A DNA stretch of 24,836 bases, taken from a virus. The position numbers and the translations under genes are program-made. Location of the stretch: the IMG/VR virus record IMGVR_UViG_3300046028_002434, positions 1-24,836 of that record; one strand, 5' to 3'. Shown here one piece after another: positions 1,735 to 24,616 of the stretch. The stretch's first letter is position 1, and every line of letters starts with the position of its first letter. The notes below the pieces were generated by a model that was given only the letters and a program-made list of their open reading frames with translations, had not been told where the DNA came from and made no database searches.

Positions 1735-3810
1735 ATGGAAAACAAATCGATAGACCTCTTGAGCAAACTGATGGCTACCGAGAACATCACTGTTCTTCGC
1801 CAGAAAGTTCGTACGGCATCCTTTGACCTGAAATCCAGGACTCTTAGGTTGCCAACCCTAATTGGTATGACTGCAGTCGAAGAGACCGTAATGGAGTTTC
1901 ACGAAGTCGGTCATGCGCTCTTCACAGGCGAAGAATACTTCGATCTGATCAAGAAGCAAGAGAAGCCACACTTCGGTTCGTATATGAACATCCTTGAGGA
2001 TGTGCGTATCGAGCGGATGATGAAGGAATACTACCCAGGTTGCCGCAAGGATTTCTTTGCTGGGTATAAGTCTCTTAATGCTCGCGATTTCTTTGGTGTG
2101 ACCAATCGTGACATCAACAGCATGTGTCTGATTGACCGAATCAACGTCCACTTCAAAGTCGGGTTCTCGTCTGGTGTCAAGTTCAACAAGGAAGAACGAC
2201 AGTTTATTGTTGAGGCTGACAAGACAGAAACAATAGAAGAAGTATACGAACTCGCTGAACGTATCTACGCTTATTCTGCTTCTGAGAAAAACAAGAAGCA
2301 AGAAGAAACTGAGAATGACATCTTTGGCGAATCCGAAGAGGATGATGAGTTTGACTTCGAGTATTCACCAGAAGATGGTGACGAAGAATACAACGAAGAT
2401 GAAGACGATCTTGAGTCTTTCGAAGGCGGCACTGATGAAGAGTCACTCGAGGATACTCCTGGCGAATCAGAAGATGATGCCCCTGCGCCAGAGACCCAGG
2501 AAAAATTCAATAATTCAATGCTCGATATTACCAATATCGATGGCTTTGAGTATGCATACATTGAGCCTAAGAATTACATTGAACCAAACTTGATTGGATA
2601 CAAAGAAATTGTAAATGACTTCAAGACTGCAAATTATTACGCAGAGAAAAACGAACAACGCCTCAGAGAATATAATGAGTTCCGCTCTGGTAACAACAAG
2701 GTAGTTGCTCACCTGGTAAAAGAATTCGAAATGCGTAAGGCTGCTCAGCGTTATTCTCGGACGCAGACAGCGACAACTGGTTCTCTTTCAATGAAGAAGA
2801 TTCACCAGTTCAAGACTAGTGACGATCTGTTCCGTAAGATGGACATTATCACTGACGACAAGAATCACTCTTTCCTGATGTTGTTGGACTGGTCTGGTTC
2901 AATGGATAGTAGCCTGCAGGATTCTCTTGGTCAGGTTATCACCCTTGCTTCTTTCTGCCGTCGAGTGAACATTCCTTTCCAGGTGTGTGCATTTAGCGAC
3001 AATCGACTTAGTGCTCGGTATTCTGAGACGCCAGAAATTGATAAGATCAATGAGCCAGGTAATTTTGGTTTGATCGATGGCGATCTGATCAACATCCTGA
3101 CTTTCTTTGATTCGAAGATGACGAACTCTGAATTTGACTTCATGTGTGAGATGCTTTATACCCGTCGATTCACTATGCTGTGCGATGAGGGACAACGTGC
3201 GGTGTCACTGAACTACAAGTATCGTCTTGGTGGAACTCCTCTGGTTGAATCACTGGCTTGGTTGTATGGTTATATTGATACTTTCAAGAAGATGAACAAG
3301 GCAGAGAAGATGACTGTCATTACTGTTACTGATGGCGAAGGTAGTGGCGTCAGCGTCAAACTTCCTGCTGGGATGAATTATTACAACGTGGCTAAACGTC
3401 TGCGTTGCCCAAAGACTGGTCGTGTCTATTCCTTGGAAAATCGAGTAAAGTTTCAGACTAGCATGATGGCAATGATCAAACACGCCAATCCAGAGGTTCG
3501 GTTTATTGGCTTCTTCGTTGCCAGCGAACTGCGTGCTATTCGTACTTTCAATTACCAGAATGGTATGGCTATTTCTGATTGCGGTGATGTGACTCGCTCA
3601 ATGAACAAACACTACTTCTATGAGTATCCTTCGCCTAACTACGACAAGTTGTACGTCATTCCCCGCCAGACTGGTGCTGTTCAGTTTAATTCTAACATGA
3701 TTGACAAGGAAATGACTGCAGCGAAGATTGCCAGGGCTATGACTTCTTCTATGACGTCAGTGCTCCGTGGACGGGTTGTTTTGACGAAATTCATCTCTGA
3801 GATCGCCTGA
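1735..3810 (+). CDS. VWA-domain protein with HExxH motif, CobT-like partner of a MoxR/CobS AAA+ ATPase
   Basis: 691 aa. The N-terminus (SIDLLSKLMATENITVLRQ) and the following TASFDLKSRTLRLP are typical of phage CobT-like proteins. A zincin-type HEVGH lies at residues 56-60, followed by NILEDVRIE (85-93), whose acidic residues could complete a metal site. A very acidic, probably disordered linker spans about 185-255. A VWA domain near 380-600 has the MIDAS DWSGS (385-389) and a TDG (near 533). MoxR ATPase/VWA pairs generally act as metal-insertion or protein-remodelling machines, and CobS/CobT is the cobaltochelatase case. No other B12 gene is seen, so remodelling or proteolysis of a host or phage target is inferred instead. 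The ATPase at 4092 is the likely partner. The start at 1735 fits the family but has no SD; the alternative is ATG 1771. Confidence 0.85.
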   Translation: MENKSIDLLSKLMATENITVLRQKVRTASFDLKSRTLRLPTLIGMTAVEETVMEFHEVGHALFTGEEYFDLIKKQEKPHFGSYMNILEDVRIERMMKEYYPGCRKDFFAGYKSLNARDFFGVTNRDINSMCLIDRINVHFKVGFSSGVKFNKEERQFIVEADKTETIEEVYELAERIYAYSASEKNKKQEETENDIFGESEEDDEFDFEYSPEDGDEEYNEDEDDLESFEGGTDEESLEDTPGESEDDAPAPETQEKFNNSMLDITNIDGFEYAYIEPKNYIEPNLIGYKEIVNDFKTANYYAEKNEQRLREYNEFRSGNNKVVAHLVKEFEMRKAAQRYSRTQTATTGSLSMKKIHQFKTSDDLFRKMDIITDDKNHSFLMLLDWSGSMDSSLQDSLGQVITLASFCRRVNIPFQVCAFSDNRLSARYSETPEIDKINEPGNFGLIDGDLINILTFFDSKMTNSEFDFMCEMLYTRRFTMLCDEGQRAVSLNYKYRLGGTPLVESLAWLYGYIDTFKKMNKAEKMTVITVTDGEGSGVSVKLPAGMNYYNVAKRLRCPKTGRVYSLENRVKFQTSMMAMIKHANPEVRFIGFFVASELRAIRTFNYQNGMAISDCGDVTRSMNKHYFYEYPSPNYDKLYVIPRQTGAVQFNSNMIDKEMTAAKIARAMTSSMTSVLRGRVVLTKFISEIA

Positions 3811-3814
3811 TCAG

Positions 3815-3843
3815 TTTACTTTTATTCCGTTTCGCGGTATAAT
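3815..3843 (+). promoter_or_regulatory. Sigma70-like promoter, TTTACTTTTATT class
   Basis: -35 TTTACT (3815-3820), 17 bp, -10 TATAAT (3838-3843). The leader after it (TATCAAAGGTTGAAAGG) is nearly the same as that after the promoter at 1528. Drives the 52-aa gene at 3873. Confidence 0.8.
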
Positions 3844-3872
3844 AACTTATCAAAGGTTGAAAGGGAAAGAAA

Positions 3873-4031
3873 ATGGAATTTCAGGAATTTGTTGTTTACG
3901 GTGATTACTCCTCGGATGAGGTGGCTTTGTATGACTATGGTCTGGCTCATCCAGACTCCTACAAGGACGCATGGCCAACTGCCGAGATCCATGGTTTCTT
4001 CCCTGCCTTCGTTGGCTACGATCTTGCTTGA
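3873..4031 (+). CDS. Hypothetical protein, 52 aa
   Basis: ATG 3873 follows SD AAGGGAAAG (3861-3869) and its own promoter; TGA at 4029-4031 overlaps the next promoter's -35. The sequence is acidic and aromatic-rich (EFQEFVVYGDYSSDEVALYD, then HGFFPAFVGYD) with no membrane segment. It sits between the VWA and AAA+ genes, so a small accessory role in that system is possible but unsupported. Not recognised. Confidence 0.6.
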   Translation: MEFQEFVVYGDYSSDEVALYDYGLAHPDSYKDAWPTAEIHGFFPAFVGYDLA

Positions 4032-4056
4032 CTTTTATTAAAAAATCAAGTATAAT
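4028..4056 (+). promoter_or_regulatory. Sigma70-like promoter of the AAA+ gene
   Basis: -35 TTGACT (4028-4033), 17 bp, -10 TATAAT (4051-4056). The -35 contains the stop codon of the 52-aa gene, and the TTGACTTTTATT block matches the other promoters with G for T at position 3. The leader is about 29 nt to ATG 4092. Confidence 0.8.
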
Positions 4057-4091
4057 ATATTATTGTTTATTTGTGATGGAGTTTATTTATT

Positions 4092-5273
4092 ATGTGGCTT
4101 TCTCGTTTTAATTCTCAAGAGCTGGAAATTATCCGCAAGATGCGCCAGCTGGACACTGCCTTCGCTGAAACTGGTCGGTTCAAGCCTGGCTTGATCCAGA
4201 AGGCAGCTGATGCACTCGGTGTTTCGCCCAAATGGTCTATCCGTAACAAGAGCAATCCTGTTACTCGAGGTGTGTATCTGATGTGTGAAAACGATGTTAC
4301 TGACCCTGCTGTGAAGCAAAGTCGTCCTAAGGAGGCAGAGCCTGTTGCAGTTGATCATAGCCCTGTGTCATTCACTCAGGCTGTGACTCGCCCAACCCTG
4401 TCTGGGGCAGTTCCTCCGATTGATCCTAAGTATGTTCCATTCGGCAACTACAAGGATCTGGAGAAGATTGTCAAGTCTCGACAATTCTTTCCGGTGTTGA
4501 TCACTGGTCATAGCGGTAACGGTAAGTCTTCTTCGGTGATGCAAATTCACGCTAAGAATCAGCTGCCGATTATCCGCATGAATATCACGAAGCGAACTGA
4601 CGAAGAAACCCTGATCGGAAGTAAGACTCTGCTCAATGGTAACGTCGTCGTCGTGGAAGGACCAATTCTGGTTGCCATGCGCCAGGGTTGTTCGGTGTTG
4701 CTTGATGAGGTGGATGCCGCTGAGAGCAATACGATTATGTGCCTCCAGTCTATTCTGGAAGGTAAGCCATATTACTTCTCGGCAACTGGTGAGTATATCA
4801 AGCCAGCAGCTGGGTTTAACATTATCATGACTGCTAATACCAAGGGTCAGGGTTCAGAGGATGGACGGTACATCGGTACCCAGATCCTCAATGAAGCCTT
4901 CCTTGAGCGAATCGCGTTCACCTTCGAGCAGGATTATCCTACTCCTGCGGTTGAGAAGAAGATCGTGATGAATATCATGGAAGAGAATGGGTGTGTTGAT
5001 GAAAAATTTGCGGAGGAACTCGTCAAGTGGGCTGATGCGATTCGTCGGTCTTTTGCTGATGGTGCTGTTGACAGCCTTATTGCTACTCGTCGTCTTGAGC
5101 ATATCGTTCGCGGGTTTTCTCTCTTCAAAGATAAGAAGAAATCCGTCGAACTGGCAGTGAATCGTTTTGATTCTATGACCAAGCAGGCATTCTTTGATCT
5201 CTTCGATAAGATTAGTTCTGAGGATGCAGTGGCTGCTCCTGTGGCTGCTCCACTCGACTCTAGCCCTTTCTGA
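4092..5273 (+). CDS. MoxR/CobS-type AAA+ ATPase, 393 aa
   Basis: The N-terminal part (1-80) is helical with no clear family. The AAA+ core has Walker A GHSGNGKS (139-146), Walker B LLDEVD (203-208), a sensor-1 region IIMTANT (about 250-257) and the NEAFLERIAFTFEQDYP segment typical of CobS/MoxR proteins. The C-terminal lid is helical, with an Ala/Pro-rich tail. Such ATPases remodel substrates presented by a VWA partner; the candidate is the protein at 1735. CobS-like genes are also common in T4-like cyanophages, where they are usually named cobaltochelatase by similarity only. GGAG at 4078-4081 lies 10 nt before the ATG. Family firm, substrate unknown. Confidence 0.88.
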   Translation: MWLSRFNSQELEIIRKMRQLDTAFAETGRFKPGLIQKAADALGVSPKWSIRNKSNPVTRGVYLMCENDVTDPAVKQSRPKEAEPVAVDHSPVSFTQAVTRPTLSGAVPPIDPKYVPFGNYKDLEKIVKSRQFFPVLITGHSGNGKSSSVMQIHAKNQLPIIRMNITKRTDEETLIGSKTLLNGNVVVVEGPILVAMRQGCSVLLDEVDAAESNTIMCLQSILEGKPYYFSATGEYIKPAAGFNIIMTANTKGQGSEDGRYIGTQILNEAFLERIAFTFEQDYPTPAVEKKIVMNIMEENGCVDEKFAEELVKWADAIRRSFADGAVDSLIATRRLEHIVRGFSLFKDKKKSVELAVNRFDSMTKQAFFDLFDKISSEDAVAAPVAAPLDSSPF

Positions 5274-5275
5274 TC

Positions 5276-5599
5276 ATGCTTACCTTTGACAATCTCTCCA
5301 CTGCCCAGAAGAAATGGGTGTATATCGTGAATCACTTCCACCCAGAGGTGACTACTGAGATTACATTCAAGCAAATCAATGACTTTCACGAGGAGTTTAT
5401 GGCTCTTCGGGAAGGTAACAAGAAGTACAAAGTTGGTTTGCCTCTGTGGTTGATTTGTGAGAATGCAATTCGTCGCGGTGTTTACTTCTTTCCTTCTGAA
5501 GCCAATACCATCGCTCCAGTCGGAACGAAGAAAGCACCTGTGAAGACTGCTCTTCTTGAGGAACTTAAACAAGAGTTGCAAAAATATGGCATAAAATAA
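5276..5599 (+). CDS. Hypothetical protein, 107 aa
   Basis: Starts 2 nt after the AAA+ stop (TGATCATG) with no visible SD, so translation is probably coupled to that gene, which hints at a shared function. The protein is soluble with mixed helix, an aromatic N-terminal half (KKWVYIVNHFHPEV) and a basic, helical C-terminus (TALLEELKQELQKYGIK). No recognised motif. It could be an adaptor of the AAA+/VWA system, but this rests on position alone. Confidence 0.7.
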   Translation: MLTFDNLSTAQKKWVYIVNHFHPEVTTEITFKQINDFHEEFMALREGNKKYKVGLPLWLICENAIRRGVYFFPSEANTIAPVGTKKAPVKTALLEELKQELQKYGIK

Positions 5600-16831: not shown

Positions 16832-16860
16832 TTTACTTTTATTCGGGTGTGTGGTATAAT
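16832..16860 (+). promoter_or_regulatory. Stable-RNA operon promoter 1
   Basis: -35 TTTACT (16832-16837), 17 bp, -10 TATAAT (16855-16860), with the full TTTACTTTTATTC block. It lies 82 bp upstream of a second promoter of the same design. Confidence 0.8.
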
Positions 16861-17404: not shown

Positions 17405-17479
17405 GCTCGGTTCGTCTATCGGTTAGGACGCTAGGTTTTCATCCTGGTAAGAGGAGTTCGATTCTCCTACCGAGTACCA
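17405..17479 (+). tRNA. tRNA-Glu (TTC)
   Basis: Acceptor GCTCGGT/ACCGAGT (G1-T72 wobble), anticodon loop TTTTCAT with anticodon TTC, T-arm GGAG-TTCGATT-CTCC, encoded CCA. Its 3' end TACCA (17475-17479) is also the first part of the closing stem of the next RNA element. Confidence 0.9.
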
Positions 17480-17563
17480 TAATAAGTGTGTGATAAGACG
17501 GTGCGTGATTGCCAGTATCGTAACTTCGAGAGCTCGTCGGTCGAGGGCACACTTATTATGGTA
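17475..17563 (+). ncRNA. Compact RNA element E4, closed by a perfect 16-bp stem (89 nt)
   Basis: TACCATAATAAGTGTG (17475-17490) pairs perfectly with 17548-17563. The interior has CTTCGA/TCGAGG-type and CGAG/CTCG pairs and a TAAGACGGT also found in E1 (17134-17142). It fills the gap between tRNA-Glu and tRNA-Lys, sharing 5 nt with the former and ending 4 nt before the latter. Confidence 0.6.
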
Positions 17564-17567
17564 GAAT

Positions 17568-17643
17568 GGGTTGTTAGCTCAGTTGGTAGAGCAGCGGACT
17601 TTTAATCCGTAGGTCGTGGGTTCGAGTCCCGCACGACCCACCA
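17568..17643 (+). tRNA. tRNA-Lys (TTT)
   Basis: Acceptor GGGTTGT/ACGACCC, anticodon loop CTTTTAA (TTT), T-arm GTGGG-TTCGAGT-CCCGC, discriminator A and encoded CCA. Normal cloverleaf; reads AAA/AAG. Confidence 0.95.
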
Positions 17644-17652
17644 AAGAATAAT

Positions 17653-17729
17653 GCGGGAGTGGCGAAATTGGTATACGCAGCGGTCTTAGAAGCCGTAAGC
17701 TGAGAGTTCGAGTCTCTCCTTCCGCACCA
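17653..17729 (+). tRNA. tRNA-Leu (TAG) with a short variable loop
   Basis: Acceptor GCGGGAG/CTTCCGC, anticodon loop CTTAGAA (TAG), T-arm GAGAG-TTCGAGT-CTCTC, A73, CCA. The variable region is only 5 nt (AAGCT), while bacterial tRNA-Leu normally has a long class II arm. Reads CTA. Confidence 0.88.
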
Positions 17730-17735
17730 AGTTAT

Positions 17736-17822
17736 GGGTATCGAGCAGCATTGGTGACTGCAGCAGACTGTAAATCTGTAGCCCTTCGGGGCAACGGGGT
17801 TCGATTCCCTGGATACCCACCA
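17736..17822 (+). tRNA. tRNA-Tyr (GTA)
   Basis: Acceptor GGGTATC/GATACCC, anticodon loop CTGTAAA (GTA), long variable arm with GCCC-TTCG-GGGC, encoded CCA. Class II as expected for bacterial tRNA-Tyr; the D-arm (GCA/TGC) is short. Confidence 0.93.
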
Positions 17823-17830
17823 AGATCAAT

Positions 17831-17906
17831 TCCTCAATAGCTCAGTCGGTAGAGCAAGGCACTGTTAATGCCTGGGTCGGAGGTTCAAGTCCTTCTTGGG
17901 GAGCCA
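17831..17906 (+). tRNA. tRNA-Asn (GTT)
   Basis: Acceptor TCCTCAA/TTGGGGA, anticodon loop CTGTTAA (GTT), T-loop TTCAAGT, discriminator G and CCA. Normal cloverleaf. Confidence 0.95.
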
Positions 17907-17913
17907 CAATAAT

Positions 17914-17990
17914 GCGGGTGTAGCCGAATTGGTATAGGCAATGGACTTAAAATTCATAATCTGAGGGTTCGAGTCCCTCCACCCGCACCA
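17914..17990 (+). tRNA. tRNA-Leu (TAA) with a short variable loop
   Basis: Acceptor GCGGGTG/CACCCGC, anticodon loop CTTAAAA (TAA), T-arm GAGGG-TTCGAGT-CCCTC, A73, CCA. As in the other tRNA-Leu here, the variable loop is 5 nt (AATCT). Reads TTA. Confidence 0.88.
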
Positions 17991-17994
17991 AGTT

Positions 17995-18074
17995 TTAGGT
18001 GATGACCCAAGCGTAAAGTTCCGGAACTGAGAAGCTAAGAAGCGTAAGTGTACAGCTGGTTTCGTACCACCTAA
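17995..18074 (+). ncRNA. Structured RNA element E5 (80 nt) between tRNAs
   Basis: TTAGGTG (17995-18001) pairs with CACCTAA (18068-18074); inside are GTTCCGGAAC and GTAC/GTAC pairings. Spacers of 4 nt to tRNA-Leu and 3 nt to tRNA-Arg match the pattern of E2-E4. It has tRNA length but no anticodon arm, T-loop or CCA that I can find. Confidence 0.45.
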
Positions 18075-18077
18075 TTT

Positions 18078-18154
18078 GCGACCGTAGCTCAGATGGATAG
18101 AGCAGCGGATTTCTACTCCGTAGGTCAGCGGTTCGAATCCGTTCGGTCGCACCA
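18078..18154 (+). tRNA. tRNA-Arg (TCT)
   Basis: Acceptor GCGACCG/CGGTCGC, anticodon loop TTTCTAC (TCT), T-loop TTCGAAT, A73 and CCA. Reads AGA, a rare codon in many GC-richer proteobacteria. Confidence 0.95.
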
Positions 18155-18164
18155 GATTTTTAAG

Positions 18165-18268
18165 ACACGGATACGTAGCACCTCCCTTTCACGGAGATGT
18201 ATGCTCGTGGCAATTCTATGTAATTCCGTGACTGACAGGAAAGAACCCATATACTGTCAACTTATTTT
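18165..18268 (+). other. Structured spacer (E6) between tRNA-Arg and tRNA-Asp
   Basis: CACGGA (18166-18171) and TCCGTG (18225-18230) can close a domain containing CTCC-CTTTCAC-GGAG, a 7-nt loop that recalls an anticodon arm. GACAG/CTGTC follows before the next tRNA. There is no CCA and no T-arm, so it may be a degenerate tRNA or another small RNA. No convincing coding frame. Confidence 0.3.
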
Positions 18269-18343
18269 GGATCTAAAGTGTTCATGGACGCACACCTCTC
18301 TGTCTAAGAGGAAGAAGGAGATCGTTACTCCTTAGATCCGCCA
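18269..18343 (+). tRNA. tRNA-Asp (GTC) with atypical T-loop
   Basis: Acceptor GGATCTA/TAGATCC, D-arm GTGT/GCAC with GG in the loop, anticodon arm CCTCT-CTGTCTA-AGAGG (GTC), T-arm AGGAG-ATCGTTA-CTCCT, discriminator G (the Asp identity base) and CCA. The T-loop lacks the usual TTC start: T54/A58 are replaced by A54/T58. Confidence 0.8.
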
Positions 18344-18357
18344 GAAAGACGTTAAAT

Positions 18358-18431
18358 ACCAATGTAGTTCAAAGGTAGAACAATCGGCTGATAACCGATA
18401 AACAAAGGATCGTTACCTTTCATTGGTACCA
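18358..18431 (+). tRNA. tRNA-Ile (GAT) with atypical T-loop
   Basis: Acceptor ACCAATG/CATTGGT, D-stem GTTC/GAAC, anticodon arm ATCGG-CTGATAA-CCGAT (GAT), T-arm AAAGG-ATCGTTA-CCTTT, A73, CCA. The T-loop ATCGTTA is the same unusual one as in the preceding tRNA-Asp. Confidence 0.85.
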
Positions 18432-18446
18432 TTAACGGAGAACAAG

Positions 18447-18683
18447 ATGGCAAGAGGATACGTTATTCAGGTCCTAGTAGCAGTAGATCAACTAGCCAAT
18501 TCTTTATTGGGTGGCTGGGCTGATGAGACTCTGTCTAGTCGTTCATATAGATTACATGACAAGAAAGTATGGTTCATTGCTGAGAAGGTGATCAATGCTC
18601 TGTTCTTCTTACAGAAAGATCATTGTCGTATGGCATATGAAGCAGAATTAAATAGGAAGCAGACATTTAGTCTGCCTAAGTAA
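18447..18683 (+). CDS. Conserved small phage protein (LGGWADETLSSR motif), 78 aa
   Basis: ATG 18447 has GGAG (18437-18440) 6 nt upstream; an in-frame TTG at 18423 lies inside tRNA-Ile and is rejected. The pattern LVAVDQLANSLLGGWADETL then SSRSYRL, FIAEKVINALFF and DHCRMAYEAELNRKQ is familiar from many phages and prophages, where it is annotated as hypothetical. The first 25 residues are hydrophobic but broken by charges, so membrane contact is uncertain. It stands inside the tRNA array and follows the tRNA-Ile CCA by 15 nt. Function unknown. Confidence 0.8.
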   Translation: MARGYVIQVLVAVDQLANSLLGGWADETLSSRSYRLHDKKVWFIAEKVINALFFLQKDHCRMAYEAELNRKQTFSLPK

Positions 18684-18688
18684 ACAAT

Positions 18689-18762
18689 GGGCTTGTAGTA
18701 TAATGGGATTACGGCAGCTTTGCAAGCTGTTTATGGGAGTTCGATTCTCCCCAGGTCCACCA
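18689..18762 (+). tRNA. tRNA-Ala (TGC)
   Basis: Acceptor GGGCTTG/CAGGTCC (two wobbles), anticodon arm GCAGC-TTTGCAA-GCTGT (TGC), T-arm GGGAG-TTCGATT-CTCCC, A73, CCA. Starts 5 nt after the preceding stop codon. Confidence 0.92.
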
Positions 18763-18778
18763 AAATTAAAGGATGTAT

Positions 18779-18952
18779 ATGCAAAAGAAATGGTATTTTT
18801 CAAAGACAGTCTGGATCAATATTTTTGCCATGGCTTCGATTTATTTGCAGATGGAGTTCGGATTTCTGTTTAGCCCAGAACTCCAGACAGCTGCTTTGTC
18901 TTTGATCAATCTCTGGTTGCGTAAAGCGACGAAGGAAGAAATCGTCTGGTAA
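18779..18952 (+). CDS. Small holin-like membrane protein, 57 aa
   Basis: ATG 18779 follows AAAGGAT; TAA is at 18950-18952, 7 nt before tRNA-Thr. The sequence starts MQKKWYFSKTVWINIFAMAS, with one hydrophobic helix (about 11-32), and ends with an amphipathic helix PELQTAALSLINLWLRKATK. The WYxSKTxWxN start with a PE..A...INL.LR end is a common phage membrane-protein pattern, sometimes annotated as holin or holin-like. A role in lysis is therefore possible but not shown. It is another coding island in the tRNA array. Confidence 0.75.
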   Translation: MQKKWYFSKTVWINIFAMASIYLQMEFGFLFSPELQTAALSLINLWLRKATKEEIVW

Positions 18953-18959
18953 AGTATTC

Positions 18960-19033
18960 GCCCCTATAGTTAAGTGGTATAACGATTGCCTTGTAAGCAT
19001 TAATTCCAAGTTCGATTCCTGGTGGGGGCACCA
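18960..19033 (+). tRNA. tRNA-Thr (TGT)
   Basis: Acceptor GCCCCTA/TGGGGGC, anticodon loop CTTGTAA (TGT), T-loop TTCGATT, A73, CCA. The anticodon and T stems each carry one mismatch, so it is slightly degenerate. Reads ACA. Confidence 0.87.
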
Positions 19034-19040
19034 AAACGTA

Positions 19041-19118
<78 letters not shown>

Positions 19119-19132
19119 TTAAATATAATTTT

Positions 19133-19209
19133 CGGAGTGTAGCACAGCCTGGTAGTGCGCTTGCTTTGGGAGCAAGAGGTCCAAGGTTCGAATCCTTGTA
19201 CTCCGACCA
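19133..19209 (+). tRNA. tRNA-Pro (TGG)
   Basis: Acceptor CGGAGTG/TACTCCG, anticodon arm CTTGC-TTTGGGA-GCAAG (TGG), T-arm CAAGG-TTCGAAT-CCTTG, A73, CCA. Normal; reads CCA. Confidence 0.95.
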
Positions 19210-19226
19210 ATAACTAAGAGGTGAAT

Positions 19227-19397
19227 ATGGGTGATGGTGGTAAAGGGTCTGCGCCAAGACCATTTAGTGTTAGTAACGTAGACTATGCTGCTCGTTGGGA
19301 TATGATCTTCGGTAAAGACCAAAAAGAGAATAAACCAAAACAGGAATCCATCACCGAATCAGAAAAGGAAAAGGAAAAGAAACCTGTTTCTCCTTAG
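19227..19397 (+). CDS. Small conserved phage protein (GDGGKGSAPRP...WDMIFGK), 56 aa, overlapping tRNA-Trp
   Basis: ATG 19227 follows AAGAGGTG. The N-terminus MGDGGKGSAPRPFSV and WDMIFGKDQKE match a widespread short phage protein type (MGKG..RRP..y..nWe.IFGK). A charged low-complexity tail EKEKEKKPVSP ends at TAG 19395-19397. The last ten bases of the gene are the 5' end of tRNA-Trp (19388), so the C-terminus is read out of tRNA sequence. Function unknown. Confidence 0.75.
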   Translation: MGDGGKGSAPRPFSVSNVDYAARWDMIFGKDQKENKPKQESITESEKEKEKKPVSP

Positions 19398-19461
19398 TGT
19401 AACGGCAGCATACGGGTCTCCAAAACCCTTGGTCGCGGTTCGAATCCGTGAGGGGAAGCCA
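19388..19461 (+). tRNA. tRNA-Trp (CCA), 5' end inside a coding sequence
   Basis: Acceptor TTCTCCT/AGGGGAA (wobbles), anticodon arm GGGT-CTCCAAA-ACCC (CCA), T-loop TTCGAAT, discriminator G as in bacterial tRNA-Trp, CCA. Overlaps the 56-aa gene by 10 nt. Confidence 0.92.
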
Positions 19462-19470
19462 AAATATAAT

Positions 19471-19545
19471 GCGGGTGTAACTCAGTGGTAGAGTGTCAGC
19501 CTTCCAAGCTGTTCGTCGCAGGTTCGACCCCTGTCACCCGCTCCA
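19471..19545 (+). tRNA. tRNA-Gly (TCC)
   Basis: Acceptor GCGGGTG/CACCCGC, anticodon arm CAGC-CTTCCAA-GCTG (TCC), T-arm CAGG-TTCGACC-CCTG, discriminator T (usual for bacterial tRNA-Gly), CCA. Reads GGA/GGG. Confidence 0.95.
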
Positions 19546-19552
19546 GAATAAT

Positions 19553-19627
19553 GCCTTGTTAGCTCAGTGGTAGAGCGGCTCCTTTACACGGAGCGGGTCG
19601 GCGGTTCGAACCCGTCACAAGGTACCA
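19553..19627 (+). tRNA. tRNA-Val (TAC)
   Basis: Acceptor GCCTTGT/ACAAGGT, anticodon arm GCTCC-TTTACAC-GGAGC (TAC), T-loop TTCGAAC, A73, CCA. Last tRNA of the array. Confidence 0.95.
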
Positions 19628-24528: not shown

Positions 24529-24616
24529 GGAAGATTGGCAGAGTGGCCGATTGCGTCAGTCTTGAAAACTGAAGACCCGAAAGGGTCCGTGAGTTCGAAT
24601 CTCACATCTTCCTCCA
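24529..24616 (+). tRNA. tRNA-Ser (TGA)
   Basis: Acceptor GGAAGAT/ATCTTCC, anticodon arm CAGT-CTTGAAA-ACTG (TGA), long class II variable arm GACCC-GAAA-GGGTC, T-loop TTCGAAT, CCA encoded. Isolated from the main array by about 4.9 kb of genes. Confidence 0.95.

Follow-up and report, generated by a model that had tools for sequence, protein, structure and literature searches.

A phage gene pair labelled 'peptidase' and 'CobS' probably encodes a metallopeptidase-bearing AAA+ remodelling machine rather than a cobaltochelatase

The gene pair and its motifs

The 24.8-kb virus record IMGVR_UViG_3300046028_002434, analysed over its whole length and referred to here as the window, represents part of a T4-like (Kyanoviridae-type) phage genome and carries, on the plus strand, genes for a protein with a VWA domain and for a CobS/MoxR-type AAA+ ATPase. 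The identity of the two genes is already known: databases label them 'peptidase' and 'CobS' in hundreds of cyanophages, and the architecture has been published for other jumbo phages (PMC7824862). A sequence-only reading of the window had proposed that the pair is a remodelling machine, with a chaperone-protease or a metal-insertion complex as an alternative to the usual label of cobaltochelatase.

The VWA gene (1735-3810) encodes a 691-residue protein that matches PHROG 459, 'peptidase' (E 2.5e-153). The features that had been read from its sequence are all present. An N-terminal domain (residues 1-200; 1735-2334) carries HEVGH at residues 56-60 (1900-1914), followed by the acidic residues E88 and D89 (1996-2001), of which the first is the proposed third zinc ligand. 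A strongly acidic linker (residues 201-262; 2335-2520), with 30 aspartate or glutamate residues to one lysine or arginine, is followed by a VWA domain (residues 378-691; 2866-3807), which has the metal ion-dependent adhesion site (MIDAS) motif DWSGS at residues 385-389 (2887-2901), together with T501 (3235-3237) and D533 (3331-3333). Two genes further on, as described in that reading, lies the gene for the 393-residue ATPase (4092-5273), which matches PHROG 249, 'porphyrin biosynthesis' (E 5.8e-94), and AAA_5 (E 2.5e-18); its Walker A motif, GHSGNGKS at residues 139-146 (4506-4529), its Walker B motif, LLDEVD, and its sensor residues are intact. Against the closest relative, contig L003, the ratio of nonsynonymous to synonymous substitution rates comes to about 0.15 (VWA gene) and 0.16 (ATPase gene).

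Predicted fold of the N-terminal domain

The sequence-only reading had suggested a comparison of the HExxH domain with zincins. The N-terminal 200 residues were modelled alone with AlphaFold2 from 72 sequences. The model was of high confidence (predicted local distance difference test score, pLDDT, 95.9; predicted template modelling score, pTM, 0.90), with a few short strands, a helix (residues 47-63) bearing HEVGH and a second conserved helix (80-99) bearing E88. A glutamate lies 20-30 residues past H60 in 71 of the 72 N-terminal domains, and E88 is a candidate for the third ligand in the window protein. When the model was compared with solved structures, the first six matches were the minimal zincins abylysin, selecase and jannalysin (probability 0.97-0.99, E 0.036-0.1), with ArdC and PprI next on the list. 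These minigluzincins are thus the closest solved folds and share HExxH with the phage domain; they differ from it in being stand-alone chains of about 105 residues, and there is no match at the level of sequence. In a viral structure library the fold was also matched by VWA or CobT proteins from many uncultured phages and from tailed viruses of haloarchaea.

Sequence searches were largely silent. A Pfam scan of the 72 N-terminal domains gave stray matches only (SprT-like and MPTase-PolyVal, two members each), and Pfam held no match for the window VWA protein; DUF2201_N (PF13203) did not match it either, nor was this family found in the records of L003, Synechococcus phage S-PM2 or pelagiphage HTVC008M. 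Searches of PDB sequences with the VWA protein or its profiles returned nothing relevant. The full-length model was of moderate confidence (pLDDT 72), and the best match of its VWA half was NorD of the NorQD MoxR-VWA complexes.

Linkage of the two genes and conservation of HExxH

The sequence-only reading had also called for a survey of whether the two genes co-occur. Contigs were gathered through the ATPase gene, so that the motif of the VWA protein was not selected for. The VWA gene lay directly upstream of the ATPase gene in 69 of 80 contigs, and among the 11 others, ten have no more than about 1 kb of upstream sequence. The remaining contig, L109, is truly without a partner: its CobS-type gene (2904-4031) is the only one with ample upstream sequence yet no VWA gene, and it is preceded by a long open reading frame (ORF) that is open at the contig edge and followed by a gene of the family of the 107-residue protein described below. 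Genes usually occurring without each other, the outcome that the sequence-only reading had named as refuting, were thus not observed in the window's phage group. When SSU5-type phages and phage-plasmids were surveyed in the same way, 79 of 80 had the partner. Among phage records, 463 were matched by the VWA protein and 516 by the ATPase, with equal counts for the two in Synechococcus (365), Cyanophage (61), Prochlorococcus (24) and Pelagibacter (3) records.

In the window protein and 49 complete VWA proteins, H56, E57, H60, T64, N85, E88, D89 and R91 were identical in all 50, as were D385, S387, S389, T501 and D533 of the MIDAS. As the set was collected via the ATPase, the conservation of HExxH cannot be put down to chance. 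HExxH was also found in 72 of the 79 SSU5-type partners, and elsewhere it occurs with other central residues: HEIGH or HEIAH in 11 of 11 Gordonia-type phages, HECYH in Vibrio phage MJW, HEAGH in Roseobacter phage CRP-810 and HESAH in Ochrobactrum phage OC. We conclude that HExxH is strictly conserved in the phage group of the window and lost in some others, so that the expectation of its conservation in homologues held within the group and failed in some lineages further out.

The two halves of the VWA protein can also occur apart. In Pseudoalteromonas phage XG4 (L170, 5872-8129; an unverified record) the VWA and zincin halves are encoded by two ORFs whose order is swapped; behind them come a remnant or partial frame of an ATPase gene, a clamp and a clamp loader. 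We take the halves to be separable modules because they form separate ORFs there. A separate VWA domain has likewise been reported for HHTV-2 (PMC8651126).

A pair that outlives its HExxH motif in some lineages might be expected if the two proteins formed a metal-insertion or enzyme-activation complex like NorQD, the nitric oxide reductase activator, which also consists of a MoxR ATPase and a VWA partner. The zincin-like domain would then hold a metal or a target, with no cutting, and a candidate target is ribonucleotide reductase (RNR), which is encoded in 13 of 17 pair-bearing records. The match of the VWA domain to NorD agrees with such a role; however, the full HExxH-plus-Glu set, including the predicted catalytic E57, is invariant in the window's group, and the RNR family is missing from MJW (a partial genome), CRP-810 and Gordonia phage Anamika. 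We regard this explanation as quite unlikely. RNR activation as an obligate role was rejected on account of these three. NorD is not known to have a zincin domain, such as is predicted for the window VWA protein.

Relationship to CobT and to cobaltochelatase

The aerobic cobaltochelatase subunits CobS and CobT (PDB 9uka and related entries) are a homologous ATPase and VWA partner, and we made the comparison of profiles with CobT that the sequence-only reading had proposed. The N-terminal domain aligned with the SSU5-type 'CobT' proteins (E 1.5e-11), HE..H falling on HE..H and the E-D motifs on each other, and the SSU5-type proteins in turn aligned with cellular CobT over most of their length (E 1.8e-47). 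The direct comparison of the N-terminal domain with cellular CobT was not significant; homology is seen only through the SSU5-type intermediates. Where the phage proteins have HE..H, cellular CobT reads G..D..AL, and HExxH was present in none of 20 cellular CobT proteins (19 sampled from alphaproteobacteria and that of Sinorhizobium). The single HExxH sequence in the alphaproteobacterial sample was an additional match in a genome that also holds a normal CobT. In the solved CobT chain, whose N-terminal domain is degenerate, GDSMA stands opposite HEVAH, in a low-scoring stretch of the alignment. The VWA protein is therefore a CobT homologue with a catalytic set that is absent from cellular CobT, and the label CobT, being supported by homology through the intermediates, fits the descent of the protein even if it misstates its function.

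We also examined the distribution of CobN, the family PF02514. It was absent from ten pair-bearing virus records, and the earlier observation that no other B12 gene accompanies the pair holds for the window genes as scanned. An Escherichia coli control genome gave no CobN-family match, though Escherichia phage-plasmids carry SSU5-type pairs, while a CobN-family protein was present in the Synechococcus elongatus control; Mg-chelatase subunits are members of this family too. Of 144 alphaproteobacterial genomes, 114 had CobT (PF06213) and 61 had the CobN family; the latter was missing from 55 of the CobT-bearing 114, and the Caulobacter control likewise had CobT and no CobN match. Cellular CobT is therefore not a safe marker of B12 synthesis, and where it occurs without CobN it may have a role outside that pathway. 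Pelagibacter, the host of HTVC008M, is not known as a B12 producer.

These results bear on the proposal that the phage pair combines with a host CobN into a cobaltochelatase and increases B12 synthesis, for instance for the benefit of RNR (Liu et al. 2021, PMC8651126; reviews PMC5083919 and PMC2984593). The homology to CobS, and to CobT through intermediates, is what such a viral CobST would show, the S. elongatus protein makes a hijack possible in cyanobacterial hosts, and the frequency of RNR in pair-bearing records noted above fits as well. It is difficult to reconcile with the lack of CobN in the virus records and in the E. coli control, with an invariant, intact HExxH that cellular CobT lacks, with the CobT-bearing alphaproteobacteria that have no CobN family, and with the score of the ATPase on the PD_CobS equivalog model, 68 bits against a cut-off of 558.55. 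We consider it very unlikely. Membership of the cobaltochelatases was rejected on the grounds of CobN, the CobS cut-off, the differing motif and the missing Pfam match of the VWA protein, and from the sequences the pair in this phage group reads as a metallopeptidase-armed MoxR-VWA remodelling machine. The doubt cast on the cobaltochelatase label by the sequence-only reading was thus probably justified as to function and not as to descent.

Two published statements can be revisited here. The gene cobS belongs to the core set of T4-like cyanophages (PMC3037559), and a 2016 review denies that the cyanophage gene is a true homologue of bacterial cobS (PMC5083919); the similarity to CobS found here speaks against that claim, while it would support a different function. 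Liu et al. state that 'cobT is mistakenly annotated as a peptidase' (PMC8651126), which conflicts with PMC7824862, and in cyanophage-type phages our data support the peptidase label. In the phage record OV696614 (H114, H241) the SSU5-type genes are labelled dimethylbenzimidazole phosphoribosyltransferase and cobalamin synthetase, apparently because CobT and CobS also serve as names of unrelated enzymes.

Gene neighbourhood and promoters

The gene order of the window is gp46 (C-terminal part), a 73-residue ORF, the VWA gene, a 52-residue ORF, the ATPase gene, a 107-residue ORF, an 84-residue ORF, a dATP/dGTP pyrophosphohydrolase-like gene, the gp45 clamp, the gp44 and gp62 clamp loader, regA, Hsp20, DNA polymerase, UvsX and a DnaB-like helicase. 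The series gp46, peptidase, cobS, gp45, interrupted by small insertions, also occurs in Synechococcus phages S-PM2, DSL-LC02 (freshwater) and S-SSM7, in Prochlorococcus phage P-HM1, in HTVC008M and in Ochrobactrum phage OC. The cyanophage 'peptidase' (PHROG 459, T4-GC 146) and 'CobS' (PHROG 249, T4-GC 150) belong to the same families as the window genes, in the same order and the same place between gp46 and gp45; the window differs in the extra gene between the two, and against aligned named members of the cyanophage type its proteins show about 30-33% (VWA) and 41-45% (ATPase, full length) identity. Across phages whose replisomes differ, the pair adjoins clamp and clamp loader genes (T4-like phages), DNA ligase and DNA polymerase (SSU5), DNA polymerase III alpha (rhizobial, Pseudomonas, Stenotrophomonas and Acinetobacter elements) or primase and helicase (ICP2).

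Sigma70-type promoter-like sites of the form TTKACT-17-TATAAT precede the VWA gene (1700-1728, with another at 1528-1556), the 52-residue ORF (3815-3843) and the ATPase gene (4028-4056), all on the plus strand, and sites before these three genes recur in L003. With one mismatch allowed, 8 copies of the pattern TTKACTTTTATT were counted in the window, against 0.5 expected. This early-type motif is also present at 16832 and 16914. Compared with L003, the window has an insert at 1528-1734, as a result of which the promoter and ribosome-binding leader now stand before a 37-residue membrane-like ORF (1586-1699). The second promoter copy in the window lies just 6 nucleotides before the VWA ATG, and the VWA mRNA may for that reason be leaderless. 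Counts of the sigma70 motif upstream of the VWA gene in other loci were uninformative. No TATAAATA late motif was found in the window, where the expected number is small, or upstream of 48 VWA genes, and we found no transcript data for cobS in the library of papers searched. The replication-gene neighbourhood and the sigma70-type promoter-like sites are circumstantial evidence that favours an early role over one in virion assembly.

For the jumbo phages of group 2.2, Iyer et al. (2021, PMC7824862) proposed a role in virion assembly: a MoxR-vWA pair with an N-terminal metallopeptidase would act as a chaperone-protease that folds and trims structural proteins. By description this pair has the same domain order and gene pairing as that of the window, an identity of architecture that counts for the proposal, and a MoxR-vWA pair is cited as required for tail assembly in Acidianus two-tailed virus. 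However, the same paper places cyanobacterial and Ochrobactrum OC phages in a group other than 2.2, and in most of the lineages that we inspected the pair adjoins replication genes, not structural ones. This neighbourhood, like the sigma70-type sites and the missing late motif, does not favour virion assembly for the window-type pair, a role that we think unlikely.

Small open reading frames and other features of the window

The sequence-only reading was also correct in placing a 52-residue gene between the two (3873-4031, plus strand) and a 107-residue gene after them (5276-5599, plus strand). The first was otherwise found only in the two closest contigs. The family of the second recurs in about 25 loci, mostly immediately 3' of the ATPase gene, and the next-ranked matches of its profile were mostly ATPase genes (E 2.5e-4 to 0.14), so that the protein and the N-terminus of the ATPase may have a domain in common; direct BLAST of the 107-residue protein against that N-terminus was unconvincing. 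A reading of the locus as a defence system was rejected, PADLOC giving a weak BrxF match for the ATPase and nothing more.

An array of 16 tRNA genes occupies 17405-19627, and one more, for serine, lies near the end at 24529-24616. A 148-kb contig related to the window has no psbA-family gene, and the host of the window phage may therefore not be a cyanobacterium.

Discussion

We conclude, with a probability of roughly 60%, that the pair is a remodelling machine of the MoxR class of AAA+ proteins, that a metallopeptidase domain is built into its VWA partner, and that the machine has an early role and does not serve as a cobaltochelatase in this group of phages. The pair itself is real and conserved, and it probably works as a protease-armed remodeller, to judge from its sequences. 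The ATPase would form a ring, and the VWA domain, through its metal-bound MIDAS, would grip an acidic side chain, either on the ring or on a substrate. ATP-driven movement would remodel the substrate, which the tethered minigluzincin-like domain, with HExxH and Glu as putative zinc-binding and catalytic residues, could then cut. Expressed from the early-type promoters, the pair might target a protein of the phage or of the host during replication or takeover. The chaperone-protease of the sequence-only reading is thus preferred to a cobaltochelatase on account of the conserved zincin motif and the linked genes, while its action on host or phage proteins stays at the level of a suggestion.

A number of observations weigh against this interpretation. 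The Foldseek E-values of the N-terminal domain against solved zincins are weak, so that the weight of the predicted fold lies in the consistency of the match list, and no zincin sequence profile matches the window VWA protein. Some relatives keep the pair and have lost the histidines of HExxH, namely Pseudomonas phage nickie (SEISK), Stenotrophomonas phage ANB28 (REVST) and an Acinetobacter phage-plasmid (QEVAK), and in these proteolysis is therefore dispensable. The promoters are matches to a consensus and do not stem from transcript measurements. In CRP-810 and Anamika the annotation shows no replication gene close to the pair, and phages cluster early genes in general, which makes the neighbourhood weak evidence. 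Activity, zinc content and the complex are predictions, as the pair is known here from sequences and models.

A wider proposal, which we offer tentatively and hold to be doubtful as a whole, is that an early metalloprotease-AAA+ machine is common to many phages and phage-plasmids of different replisome ancestry, in which it would cut or remodel a replication-linked protein. CobT would then be a catalytically decayed relative, and about half of alphaproteobacterial CobT proteins would work without CobN, outside B12 synthesis.

The data allow two conflicting published readings to be weighed, that of a mistaken peptidase label (PMC8651126) and that of a metallopeptidase-vWA pair (PMC7824862). Marine viruses are frequently said to carry cobS as an auxiliary metabolic gene. 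Claims of viral B12 production that rest on this pair would fail if it is a protease-chaperone. In that case a popular label would be corrected and the question of function made testable, and a widely conserved phage machine would be a protease-chaperone rather than a B12 enzyme.

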